From Arenibacter echinorum (GTDB taxonomy: Bacteria; Bacteroidota; Bacteroidia; Flavobacteriales; Flavobacteriaceae): a DNA stretch of 64,000 bases. Numbering within the stretch: the stretch's first letter is position 1; each line of letters starts with the position of its first letter. The notes below the pieces were generated by a model. It did no database searches. It was not told the origin of the DNA and saw only the letters and a list, made by a program, of their open reading frames with translations. The position numbers were made by a program, and so were the translations under genes. Below are positions 19,433-24,886 of this stretch, one piece after another. The DNA lies in NCBI RefSeq assembly GCF_003259375.1, contig NZ_QLLN01000003.1, positions 238,955 through 302,954 of the forward strand, read 5' to 3'.

Positions 19433-22273
19433 TCACAAACCTAATTCTTTTCTTAAAAATTTTGAGGTGTAACTTTTTTTATCGAGAGCTACTTCCTCCG
19501 GTGTTCCTTCCGCAACTACCATACCACCATTGCGCCCCCCTTCGTAACCAATATCTATGATATGGTCCACCATTTTTATGACGTCCATATTGTGTTCAAT
19601 TACGAGAACTGTATTTCCCTTGTTTACAAGCTTATTAAGCACGTGCATCAATACTCTGATATCTTCAAAGTGTAGGCCGGTGGTTGGTTCGTCCAAAATA
19701 TAAAAGGTATTTCCAGTATCCCTTTTGGACAGTTCAGTAGCCAACTTTATACGCTGCGCTTCTCCACCGGATAGGGTGGTAGATTGCTGGCCCAAGGAAA
19801 TATATCCCAACCCAACATCCTGTATAGTTTTTAATTTGCGATATATCTTGGGAATATTCTCAAAAAAATCCACAGACTCGTTTATGGTCATTTCCAGTAC
19901 ATCGGCAATAGATTTGCCCTTATATCTTATCTCCAAGGTTTCCCTGTTAAAACGTTTCCCATTACAGGTCTCACATTCAACATATACATCTGGAAGGAAA
20001 TTCATTTCAATTACCCTAAGACCTCCTCCTTGACAAGTTTCACAACGCCCTCCAGTAACATTAAAACTAAAACGACCGGGCTTGTAACCCCTAATGGAGG
20101 CTTCCTGTGTTTTGGCAAAAAGCGACCTAATTTCACTAAAGACTCCGGTGTAGGTGGCAGGATTGGACCTTGGTGTTCTTCCAATAGGAGACTGGTTAAT
20201 ATCTATGACCTTGTCTATGTGTTCCAAGCCCTTAATTTTCTTGTAGGGCATAGGGACCTTTACTCCATTAAAGTAATAAGCATTTAAAATAGGGTATAAG
20301 GTTTCGTTGATCAAGGTAGATTTTCCACTTCCCGAAACACCGGTTACCCCGATCATTTTACCCAGAGGGAAACGTACTGAGACATTTTTAAGATTATTTC
20401 CCGAACAGCCCGATAATTCCAAGCTTTTTCCATTTCCTTCCCTGCGTTTTTTTGGAATTTCTATTTTTAATTTTCCAGAAATATAGTCGGCCGTTAGGGT
20501 ATTATGGTTTTTTAGATCACCAGGTTTTCCTTCCGAAATTATTTCCCCTCCATGCTTTCCAGCTTTTGGTCCAATATCTATAACATGATCTGCACGCTCT
20601 ATCATATCGCGGTCATGCTCTACCACAATTACTGAATTACCGAGGTCTCTGAGAGATTCCAAAGACTTTATCAATCGTTCGTTATCCCTTTGATGCAAAC
20701 CAATACTGGGTTCATCCAGAATATATAGAACACCTACCAATTGAGACCCAATTTGGGTTGCCAATCTAATACGCTGCGCTTCCCCTCCTGAAAGGGATTT
20801 ACTACTTCTATTTAAGGAGAGGTAATCCAAGCCTACATCCAATAGAAATTGGACCCTTGTTTTTATCTCTTTTATAATTTCCTCGGCAATTTTTAATTGG
20901 TTGCCTTCCAATTTTTTTTCAAGACCGTTAAAGAAATCCGCCAATTCCGCAATATCCAAATTGGATAGATCGGCAATATTGTTGTTGTCTATTTTAAAAT
21001 TTAGGGACTCTTGTTTTAGCCTAGTACCTCCACAGGTGGGACATTTAATTTTGTCCATATATTCCTTGGCCCAGCGTTTAATGGACGTGGAGTTGGCCTC
21101 ATTAAATTGACTTTTGATAAAATTGGAAATGCCTTCATAATCTATTTTATAGAGGCGCTTTACTCCCAAAGTTTTTGAATCTACCTCGAAACTTTCCTTG
21201 CCACCATAGAGCAATACTCCAATGGCTTCCTCAGGAATTTTGGCAATTGGGGTGGTAAGTTCAAAATTATATCGCTGCGCTATAGTTTCTATCTGTTTAA
21301 AGGCCCAGGAATTTTTATATTCGCCCAAGGGCGCAATTCCACCTCCTTTTATGGACAGATTTTTATTCGGGAATATTTTGTTTTCATTTACCTCATAAAT
21401 ATGTCCAAGACCATTACAATCTGGACACATGCCCTTTGGGGAATTAAAAGAAAAGGTATTAGGTTCGGGGGAAGGGTATGAAATTCCAGTGGTAGGGCAC
21501 ATTAAATCCCTACTAAAATACCGGGGTACATCCTTACCTTCTTCCAAAATCATCAGTACATTTTCACCGCTGTACATGGCCGTATTAATTGTTTCCGAAA
21601 TACGTTTGTCCAATTCGGTACTCTCCTCAATTTTGAGTCGGTCTATAACAATCTCAATATCATGGGTCTTATAACGGTCCACTTTCATGCCCTTTACAAT
21701 ATCCTTGATTTCCCCATCTACCCTTACCTTAACAAAACCTTGTTTTGCAATCTGTTCAAAAAGTTCCCTATAATGACCTTTTCTTGATTTGATAATAGGA
21801 GCCAGGATATTTATTTTCTTGCCTTTATAGGAAGATATGATCAATTCCTTTATCTGCTCATCATCATAACTAACCATCTTCTCCCCAGTATTGTAACTGT
21901 AGGCATCTCCGGCCCTGGCAAATAAAAGTCTAAGAAAATCGTATATCTCGGTAATGGTGCCTACAGTGGACCTGGGAGATTTTGAAGTAGTCTTTTGCTC
22001 AATGGCAATTACTGGCGATAGGCCATCTATTTTGTCCACATCCGGGCGCTCCAAGCCACCCAGAAACTGTCGGGCATAGGCCGAAAAAGTCTCAATATAC
22101 CGCCTTTGACCTTCAGCATAAATGGTGTCAAAGGCCAAGGATGATTTGCCGCTTCCGGAAAGTCCGGTAATAACAACCAGCTTTTCACGGGGTATGGTAA
22201 CGTCTATATTCTTAAGGTTGTGCACACGAGCGCCTTTAACCTCAATATTCTCTTCGTAATTAATCATTTTCAT
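19433..22273 (-). CDS. uvrA: excinuclease ABC subunit A
   Basis: 946 aa, full length. Two ABC ATPase modules are seen: first Walker [13 protein letters not shown], signature [18 protein letters not shown]; second Walker [37 protein letters not shown]. Zinc-binding Cys pairs ([26 protein letters not shown]...CETCNG) are intact. UvrA recognises bulky lesions and loads UvrB in nucleotide-excision repair. The start could be Met1 or Met3. It is divergent from the UvrD-tail-like small gene across 115 bp. Confidence 0.97.
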
Positions 22274-23043: not shown

Positions 23044-23763
23044 CTATACTACCGCCTTTTCATCCATATCGGCCATCTCAGGTTTTCTGGAATAGCGTGA
23101 ATGTGAGTGCAATTTATTATTTATCAGTTGTTTTATGTTGGTATGGGAAAGGTCTCCGGTGCAATCATAAACCGATAATTCCAAGGAAATAATTTCGACA
23201 GTATAGAGGTTGTAATAAATGGCATACTTTCTTTTTTGATCGTACACCATGAATTCCTGACCATGAAATTTTGACCTGAAGTATTTGGAAATAAGTGGTA
23301 GCACATCAAACCCAGGGGAAACATTGGAAAAGTAAACCAGATCTTGTGATAATTCAAAATTTGCTATGGCTTCTATTCTATGTTTTTCCCGGGCCACCAT
23401 TCTGGAGTGTTGCTGAATTTTTAAAACAATTTCGGACATTCCCTCTATAGGATTATCATTGGGATTGGCGTACATGGAACGGATGTACTGGTACAAAAGA
23501 AATTCAATGCCTTTGGTTTCGCTTAAAAAAGCAAAGTAAATGGACTTAATGGCTGAATTACTTTTGTTCTGTATACTGTTCCAAACCCGTCTTGCCTTAC
23601 CCATCTGGGTAAATACGGTTATTGCCTCAGAAAACAGACCTTTTTGAAGCTCCTTATTTTTTTGGATGTTCGCGACTGGGATTTTCTCTTCAAAAATTTT
23701 GAAAACCGTAGTTAAAAAACCATTGAAACTGCCATCGTAAATTAAAACCTTTGGATTTTCCAT
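23044..23763 (-). CDS. TIGR03915 family putative DNA repair protein
   Basis: 239 aa. The N-terminus VLIYDGSFNGFLTTVFKIFE and the C-terminal half with FMVYDQKRKYAIYYNL match TIGR03915/DUF4130, a family usually paired with the radical-SAM protein TIGR03916 and predicted to act in DNA repair or modification. No such radical-SAM gene is present in the window. The gene starts 2 bp after the stop of the 59-aa gene, so the two form one transcription unit running from the operator region at 23966-24046. Biochemical activity is not established. Confidence 0.85.
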   Translation of the reverse strand: MENPKVLIYDGSFNGFLTTVFKIFEEKIPVANIQKNKELQKGLFSEAITVFTQMGKARRVWNSIQNKSNSAIKSIYFAFLSETKGIEFLLYQYIRSMYANPNDNPIEGMSEIVLKIQQHSRMVAREKHRIEAIANFELSQDLVYFSNVSPGFDVLPLISKYFRSKFHGQEFMVYDQKRKYAIYYNLYTVEIISLELSVYDCTGDLSHTNIKQLINNKLHSHSRYSRKPEMADMDEKAVV

Positions 23764-23765
23764 AA

Positions 23766-23945
23766 TTAATCGAATAAACTGAGTTGAACACTTAATTCCT
23801 TTTTTAAACGTCTTCTTTCCGTTTTTACCATATGACCTTTAGCTGAACCATTCCCTTTCTTAACATTAACTGAAACAAAGTGATTGTCCTCCATCCCGGA
23901 AAAGGCTAGACTACTTAATGTTTGATGTAAATCGTCCAAAGTCAT
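23766..23945 (-). CDS. 59-aa protein with C-terminal beta-clamp-binding motif
   Basis: 59 codons from ATG at 23945 to TAA, below the usual ORF cut-off. It begins MTLDDLHQTL, has a basic middle (VKKGNGSAKGHMVKTERRRLKKE) and ends VQLSLFD. QLSLF matches the consensus sliding-clamp-binding pentapeptide (QL[S/D]LF) found at the C-termini of UmuC/DinB/ImuB-type polymerases and other clamp clients. Its ATG lies 20 bp from the first operator site and its stop 2 bp before the TIGR03915 start, supporting a real first gene of the operon. A remnant of a larger protein is the main alternative. Confidence 0.72.
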   Translation of the reverse strand: MTLDDLHQTLSSLAFSGMEDNHFVSVNVKKGNGSAKGHMVKTERRRLKKELSVQLSLFD

Positions 23946-23965: not shown

Positions 23966-24046
23966 TCCAAATATATGGACTATTTCCTAATTATGGAAAT
24001 AATCCAATATTTTTTTTGGATATATTCCAAAATCCGTATATTTGGA
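23966..24046. promoter_or_regulatory. divergent promoter with repeated repressor-type operators
   Basis: Site A (23966-23979) reads TCCATATATTTGGA on the minus strand. Site B (24033-24046) reads TCCGTATATTTGGA on the plus strand, 13 of 14 identical. Two more dyads lie between: TTCCTAATTATGGAA (23984-23998) and TTGGATATATTCCAA (24016-24030). A and B each contain TATATTTG, a perfect Bacteroidota -7 element. On the plus strand TTTG at 24015-24018 gives an 18-nt spacer; on the minus strand TTTC at 23999-23996 gives 20 nt. A repressor bound here would block both promoters. Confidence 0.75.
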
Positions 24047-24118: not shown

Positions 24119-24886
24119 ATGAACGAGGAAATGGAAATTGTGACAAAGCGTTTTACCGATCTACGCCGGGAATTGGGGTATACCCAATCTGACTTTGCCA
24201 ACTTGCTCGGAATTTCAAATACTACTGCCGACATAGAAAGGGGACGCACCAAATTATCGGGAAAAGTAGTGGCGGAACTGTTGAAACAATTTAAAATTAA
24301 TCCTCTTTGGCTATTTGGTGAAAGTACCCAAAAGTATCTGGCAGTTACAAACATCAGTGTTATTCCAAAGGTGGTTACGGTAAATTCATCCGAAAACGAG
24401 AATATGGTATTGGTAAATGCCAAAGCCGCTGCTGGATACCCTCAAAATATTCAGGACACCAGTTGGTACAAACAGCTGCCTGCCTTTGATATTCCCTTGC
24501 CAGAATTCAGAAATGCCACTTATAGGGGTTTCCAAATTGAAGGCGACAGTATGTTGCCGAATCTAAAGCCGGGAGAATGGGTATTGGCCAGAGCCGTTGA
24601 AGGACTAAAAGATATTAGTCCCAATAAGATTTACGTGGTGGTATTACAGGACGCCGTGTTGGTGAAAAAAATTGAAAAATCTCCTGATCCAGCCGTAATT
24701 TCCTTAATATCATTAAATGAAAATTATCCTCCATACAGCGTTAATACGGAAGACCTACAAGAGCTTTGGCAAGTTAGCAGTAAAATAACCTTTGGTGTAG
24801 ATGCCACCTCCGAAAAGGGATTGTTGAGACAATTGCAGGAATCTATGGATGAGCTTAAAAATCAATTAAAAAAAGTCAATAATTGA
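24119..24886 (+). CDS. XRE-HTH / S24 LexA-CI-like repressor
   Basis: 255 aa. An XRE-type helix-turn-helix (about 7-68, LRRELGYTQSDFANLLGIS) is joined to an S24 autopeptidase domain. Cleavage motif AKAAAGY offers Ala105-Gly106; the Ser in EGDSM (Ser144) and the Lys in VLVKKI (Lys183) form the expected dyad. A C-terminal coiled coil (LLRQLQESMDELKNQLKK) may aid dimerisation. By analogy with LexA and lambda CI it should self-cleave on RecA filaments. It is divergent from the 59-aa/TIGR03915 operon, with operators over its own promoter, so autoregulation is likely (inference). Confidence 0.9.
   Translation: MNEEMEIVTKRFTDLRRELGYTQSDFANLLGISNTTADIERGRTKLSGKVVAELLKQFKINPLWLFGESTQKYLAVTNISVIPKVVTVNSSENENMVLVNAKAAAGYPQNIQDTSWYKQLPAFDIPLPEFRNATYRGFQIEGDSMLPNLKPGEWVLARAVEGLKDISPNKIYVVVLQDAVLVKKIEKSPDPAVISLISLNENYPPYSVNTEDLQELWQVSSKITFGVDATSEKGLLRQLQESMDELKNQLKKVNN

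Follow-up and report, generated by a model that had tools for sequence, protein, structure and literature searches.

A 59-codon open reading frame in a stretch of the Arenibacter echinorum genome (64,000 nucleotides, called here the window) is a real gene. Its product has a conserved segment at either end, predicted to be helical at the N-terminus and forming a QLxLF-type tail at the C-terminus, with a variable linker in between, and it is probably neither a dying remnant of the TIGR03916 radical-SAM enzyme nor unrelated to it. On balance we think that it is a small, SOS-induced sliding-clamp adaptor, which would serve as an enzyme-free tether for the TIGR03915-family protein encoded next to it. 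The earlier note on this DNA had set a new small clamp ligand against a remnant of the radical-SAM partner, and each of these two ideas turns out to be partly right.

The gene lies on the minus strand at 23766–23945, starts with ATG and ends in SVQLSLFD, and it agrees with its first description: 59 aa, QLSLF near the C-terminus, a 2-bp gap to a TIGR03915 gene and a divergently oriented repressor. Codons 54–58 (23772–23786, minus strand) form the putative clamp-binding motif QLSLF, which is followed by a C-terminal Asp and so sits at the extreme C-terminus. The motif follows the clamp rule Q-phi-x-[L/M]-[F/L] in its best form, QLxLF, which passages of PMC11139829 give as the highest-affinity natural clamp consensus, adding that a C-terminal acidic residue right after the motif can touch the clamp. 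Among the 313 window ORFs of at least 40 aa no other carries a clamp motif at its C-terminus (screened as Q[LIMV]x[LM][FL] plus at most four residues at the end), and all 51 ORFs shorter than 100 aa that end in QLxLF or in QLxLF plus one residue, among 3,835 ORFs of at least 40 aa in the fetched loci (many of them repeated or overlapping), belong to the small-protein family. The same genome encodes a canonical DnaN (TIGR00663, 261.8 bits; best solved clamp 8dt6, E 2e-119), and we consider it likely that the tail binds the clamp. The protein lacks both cysteine and a radical-SAM core, and searches of Pfam, NCBIfam, PHROGs and the PDB with the protein or its alignment gave no family, two of 17 family members having single weak Pfam matches (E 0.05 and 0.14). 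According to the same passages of PMC11139829, Pol II, Pol IV and Pol III alpha also have a C-terminal clamp-binding motif, but these are polymerases, whereas no catalytic domain is present in the small protein. By description only, it may also be likened to ImuB of the mycobacterial mutasome, which parts of PMC10421592 and PMC11791113 present as damage-linked, catalytically inactive and predicted to connect partners to the clamp; ImuB, however, is a full-length inactive Y-family polymerase.

Homologues of 58–62 aa are found in 17 of the 18 Arenibacter genomes, 16 as BLAST matches and one (G207, C-terminus IQFSLFD) recognised at the operator; in the genome G200 the small ORF is gone and TIGR03915 is kept. 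BLAST with the 59-aa protein against 199 genomes gave nothing credible in other genera (best E 0.05). The idea that the gene is specific to Arenibacter was overturned when loci upstream of TIGR03915 were examined, as reading upstream of weaker-scoring TIGR03915 copies brought to light, in eight further genera, ORFs that have both of these ends. A first profile, built from Arenibacter and these eight genera and run on 395 genomes from 109 genera of the order, matched nine genomes, of which the window's own genome, G032, G160 (E 1e-5) and its congener G372 (E 9e-5) are credible, the last two being outside the profile; the five remaining matches have E from 0.003 to 0.008. With a second profile the same ten of 199 genera were recovered at E below 1e-12, by construction since it holds rows of all ten, and no genus was added; there were two weak extras, at E 0.03 (the tail of the enzyme in G100) and E 0.05. 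In total, the family covers Arenibacter and nine further Flavobacteriaceae genera at 53–64 aa, so that length, a point raised in the earlier note, is conserved within the genus and beyond it. An alignment of 17 rows from the ten genera shows no variation at M1, Q54, L57 and F58 and hardly any at L10 and A14. Position 2 of the clamp motif is L, I, P or F in Arenibacter, the P (G201) and the F (G207) deviating from the aliphatic rule of the motif.

Purifying selection, the other point on which the earlier note had placed weight, is evident and uneven along the protein. Pooled pN/pS, from the 11 ungapped Arenibacter sequences of 16 and over pairs that are not independent, is 0.50 overall, 0.30 for codons 1–20 (the conserved N-terminal segment, 23886–23945, minus strand), 0.71 for codons 21–51 and 0.09 for codons 52–59; silent positions do vary within the clamp-motif codons. 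In five of six hand-chosen close pairs amino-acid changes fall below neutral simulation (P 0.0004–0.018), and the sixth has three differences only (P 0.17). AlphaFold2 predicts a helix over residues 3–15 (mean pLDDT 89 for residues 1–10) and draws another over residues 33–57, tail included, at pLDDT 75–78 over the last 20 residues and pTM 0.28, with no free tail.

The control region fits damage induction. The divergent gene (24119–24886, plus strand) encodes a CI-like repressor of the Bacteroidetes LexA type, with an HTH_3 domain and an S24 peptidase containing the Ala-Gly bond and the Ser-Lys dyad (GDSM serine, VLVK lysine); the same three features are seen in the five orthologues read, of 49. 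Between the two genes there are two GGA-N5-TCC SOS boxes 10 bp apart, TGGATATATTCCA (24017–24029) and TGGAAATAATCCA (23994–24006), both exact matches to TGGA-N5-TCCA and the only two exact matches in the 64-kb window. A candidate third copy that differs at one position, TGGACTATTTCCT (23976–23988), is weak, because the window contains 37 sites with one mismatch or none. Adjoining the boxes, upstream of the small gene, is TATATTTG (23968–23975, minus strand), which we take to fit the Bacteroidetes -7 promoter element TAnnTTTG. In all 18 Arenibacter genomes the perfect pair with the 10-bp gap is found once per genome, at the small-gene locus, four of these genomes having one extra paired place with one mismatch. 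At least one exact site is found in 35 of 36 S24-linked loci (the exception is L133), whether the small gene is present or absent and in most cases close to where the repressor gene begins, and in none of the four loci without S24. These features, the CI-like S24 repressor with Ala-Gly and Ser-Lys and the GGA-N5-TCC boxes, are those of the Bacteroidetes non-canonical LexA regulon described in PMC8565304, where GGA-N5-TCC is given as the operator of the Flavobacteriaceae-type LexA, backed in Salegentibacter by gel shifts with mutated sites and by induction with mitomycin C, and DNA-damage induction is reported for Salegentibacter and Pontibacter. The passages of that paper on the regulon predict a COG1573-COG4277 operon as a member and do not mention the small gene. 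Since this type of operator is backed by experiment in other genera, damage induction of the window operon is a well-founded prediction; the claim of a conserved clamp motif in the first gene of a repressor-controlled operon holds up, and the operator proves to be the published Bacteroidetes SOS box.

The gene downstream (23044–23763, minus strand, 2 bp from the small gene) belongs to the TIGR03915 family (149.5 bits against a cut-off of 112.25; PF13566, DUF4130), in a short class that does not have the C-terminal RYWKYLSEK. A part of PMC3765255 terms DUF4130 a predicted mutagenesis-related enzyme, and a role of TIGR03915 in repair is at present a prediction only. We found the family in 65 of 199 genera, each represented by one genome. 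RYWKYLSEK is present in the copies linked to the radical-SAM enzyme (30 of 30 by a loose and 28 of 30 by a strict reading; three of three by either in the full copies of Arenibacter), and it is absent (as RYWKYL[ST]EK) from all 16 short Arenibacter copies, from all ten short copies without the small gene and, with the exception of a degenerate form in G026, from the eight short copies with the small gene outside Arenibacter. The absence of the motif where there is no radical-SAM gene suggests that it may have a part in the reaction carried out jointly with the enzyme or in the contact between the two proteins. In five of the 20 enzyme-less genera the TIGR03915 copy is below the cut-off; this includes a fragment in G132, where the only trace of TIGR03915 seen in the genome is a 70-aa open frame with KHVPKRYWKYLSKK (L161). 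A structure model of the short protein was unusable (pLDDT 48, from six rows of which the other five are 79–93% identical to that of the window). Further along the same strand, about 0.8 kb from the TIGR03915 gene, there is a 946-aa ORF that looks UvrA-like by eye (19433–22273, minus strand), with a plus-strand ORF of 175 aa in between.

The usual partner of TIGR03915 is TIGR03916 (COG4277, "putative DNA modification/repair radical SAM protein"), of about 420 aa, and it, too, frequently ends in a clamp motif. In Flavobacteriaceae a QxxLF-type tail is found at the end or within about ten residues of it in 30 of 30 loci and 33 of 33 proteins, the latter coming mostly from the same genera as the loci, plus three from Arenibacter. 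In the wider phylum, under a broad rule that also accepts a final L or W, the motif is present in all 26 parsed loci of the first 27 new ones, which are the best-scoring, and the 27th has the hexamer QLQLTF. Another 20 phylum copies, hand-chosen with early-ending matches included, comprise 15 of the family f31, one f57 copy without a motif, three canonical copies and one with the hexamer QLQLTF, one of the 20 being the same G794 gene as before (the TIGR03916 loci read, in all groups, are L055–L057, L108–L137, L189–L219 and L221–L240). The f31 proteins end in a QLVLPGLF-like sequence in 13 of 15 cases and canonically in two; this variant falls outside the published pentamer and hexamer rules and is similar to the RQLVLGL tail given for Pol IV in a passage of PMC11139829. 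The tail is therefore widespread and not universal, f31 variants and the tail-less f57 copy ruling out a canonical clamp tail on every TIGR03916. The motif also appears in copies from Alphaproteobacteria and Clostridia. Four plasmid copies, of 158 records, carry QLSLF (Spirosoma, Azospirillum and Pusillibacter, the last with three residues after it) or QLSLL (Agrobacterium vitis), and no clamp motif was seen in the three partner proteins checked alongside. At the level of titles and the beginnings of abstracts, in mostly open-access literature without preprints, we found neither a clamp motif on TIGR03916 nor a comparable small clamp ligand described.

The small gene and the gene for TIGR03916 share the operon slot before TIGR03915 and, in S24-linked loci, the type of SOS box. 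Their products share the QxxLF tail in Flavobacteriaceae and a similar pattern over the N-terminal ~20 residues, even though the small protein is 59 rather than about 420 aa long, does not contain the radical-SAM core and has no match to an NCBIfam or Pfam family. The enzyme begins M-S-F-E-R-I-K-E-K-L-x-I-L-A-D-A-A-K-Y-D and one of the small proteins (L039) M-T-L-E-D-I-H-Q-K-L-S-K-L-A-H-S-G-M-E-D. On the enzyme profile, 20 of the 24 small proteins, 16 from Arenibacter among them, score above all 195 background N-termini; the scores of L097, L098 and L100 are reached by 1, 2 and 15 of the 195, and that of L088, which starts two residues later, by 129. Averaged over ten lineages, two of whose registers were set by eye, the Met-anchored register 0 is the top position along the whole enzyme, and its score is reached in none of 20,000 class-preserving randomisations and in eight of 20,000 with a shared substitution map. 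In hhalign the two best matches fall at the two termini (P 0.0018 and 0.0045), with low probabilities of 15% and 8%, and the small protein keeps little of the ADAAKYDVS block that is invariant in the enzyme. We regard homology at both ends as probable from these comparisons.

How are the two genes distributed? Among the 65 TIGR03915 genera 45 have TIGR03916 and 20, including that of the window genome, do not; the small gene is present in nine of the 20 enzyme-less genera versus one of the 45 enzyme-bearing ones (Fisher p 4e-5, with kinship ignored and one genome per genus). In these nine of the ten small-gene genera the sampled genome is without the enzyme and the small gene occupies its slot. 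The tenth is the genus of G160 and G372, where the order is repressor, operators, small gene and radical-SAM gene, the small proteins end in QLNLFD and QLNLFE, respectively, the enzyme has its own clamp tail and, in G160, TIGR03915 with an intact RYWKYLSEK motif follows the enzyme gene. No motif-ending ORF was found within 700 bases before the enzyme (384 bases only in G177) in the other 44 enzyme-bearing genera. Three of the 18 Arenibacter genomes (G203, G205 and G207) contain a full enzyme pair elsewhere in addition to the small gene, and ten genera have a short TIGR03915 with neither enzyme nor small gene. On the repressor tree the presence of the small gene changes at least five times, and that of the enzyme likewise; a topology that unites the small-gene rows in one clade narrowly escapes rejection (p-AU 0.051). 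With their poor resolution and some long branches, the trees give no firm order of gains and losses. Because the small gene and the enzyme co-occur in G160 and G372 and selection acts on the small protein, a simple remnant of a lost enzyme is rejected as the whole story: the remnant idea in the earlier note is borne out in so far as both ends resemble the radical-SAM enzyme, and the selection and the operon shared with an intact enzyme gene speak against mere decay. A pure replacement role is too simple as well, since G160 and G372 also keep a tailed enzyme, and TIGR03915 is not always in need of the small gene, since the ten genera and Arenibacter G200 do without it.

What would the small protein do, then? 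In the mechanism that we propose, DNA damage would lead to cleavage of the repressor and so to expression of the small gene and TIGR03915. The C-terminal tail of the small protein would bind in the DnaN pocket, while its N-terminal helix would dock on the TIGR03915 protein, so that the two together would reach replicating DNA with no need of the enzyme, the small protein replacing the tethering that is otherwise given by the enzyme's own tail. The docking step is a guess from the co-occurrence and the shared N-terminus, for which we see about even chances. As to its origin, the small gene is probably a duplicate of the radical-SAM gene in which an internal part was deleted.

The main rival explanation, which we consider unlikely, is that the small protein acts alone as a competitor, filling the clamp pocket after damage and displacing polymerases or other clients; it would then slow or switch replication, and TIGR03915 would be a mere operon neighbour. 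This would fit selection being strongest at the clamp motif, the first place of the gene in the operon and the one genus in which it coexists with the enzyme, as a second tether would seem unnecessary there. However, all ten genera have the gene at the TIGR03915 locus (eight of them were found by looking there), the profile searches gave no convincing copy elsewhere, and the second conserved segment, similar to the enzyme N-terminus, would be needless for a competitor peptide.

It is also conceivable, at a clearly lower probability, that the gene is what was left of the radical-SAM gene after an internal deletion and is kept by the structure of the operon, for example by translational coupling, and not for its protein. 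Both ends are enzyme-like, 14 of 16 Arenibacter loci have a 2-bp gap before TIGR03915, the linker is under little constraint, and the gene was lost in one Arenibacter genome and is absent from ten enzyme-less genera, all of which would agree with such a vestige. Against it, selection acts at the amino-acid level and most strongly at the clamp motif, whose Q, L and F do not vary in the alignment of 17 rows that spans ten genera, and the small gene coexists with an intact enzyme. An origin independent of the enzyme, with the two ends converging through two common partners, the clamp and TIGR03915, appears about equally improbable: the N-terminal match is short, has an hhalign probability of only 8% and mostly omits the ADAAKYDVS block, but the Met-anchored register scores better than any other enzyme position and the operon slot is the same, and this alternative would alter the origin only, leaving the proposed function unchanged.

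Under the adaptor interpretation, the broader picture, which we put forward tentatively and at somewhat less than even chances, is that a repair-linked radical-SAM family that bears a clamp tail over a large part of its distribution gave rise in Flavobacteriaceae to a mini-adaptor of both ends and no enzyme, which is under SOS control, persists enzyme-free in at least nine genera and allows the orphaned TIGR03915 protein to go on working at the clamp. If this is true, TIGR03915 would by itself have a function that is linked to the clamp and independent of radical-SAM chemistry. The widespread and poorly understood two-gene system of TIGR03915 and TIGR03916 would be tied to the sliding clamp in two ways, via the tail of the enzyme and via a stand-alone protein. 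The change of QLSLF to alanine offers a ready mutant, and the enzyme-less genomes that retain the clamp tether together with the TIGR03915 protein represent a natural experiment. The link to the clamp thereby provides a handle on the possible working place of TIGR03915 and TIGR03916, which may be replicating DNA.
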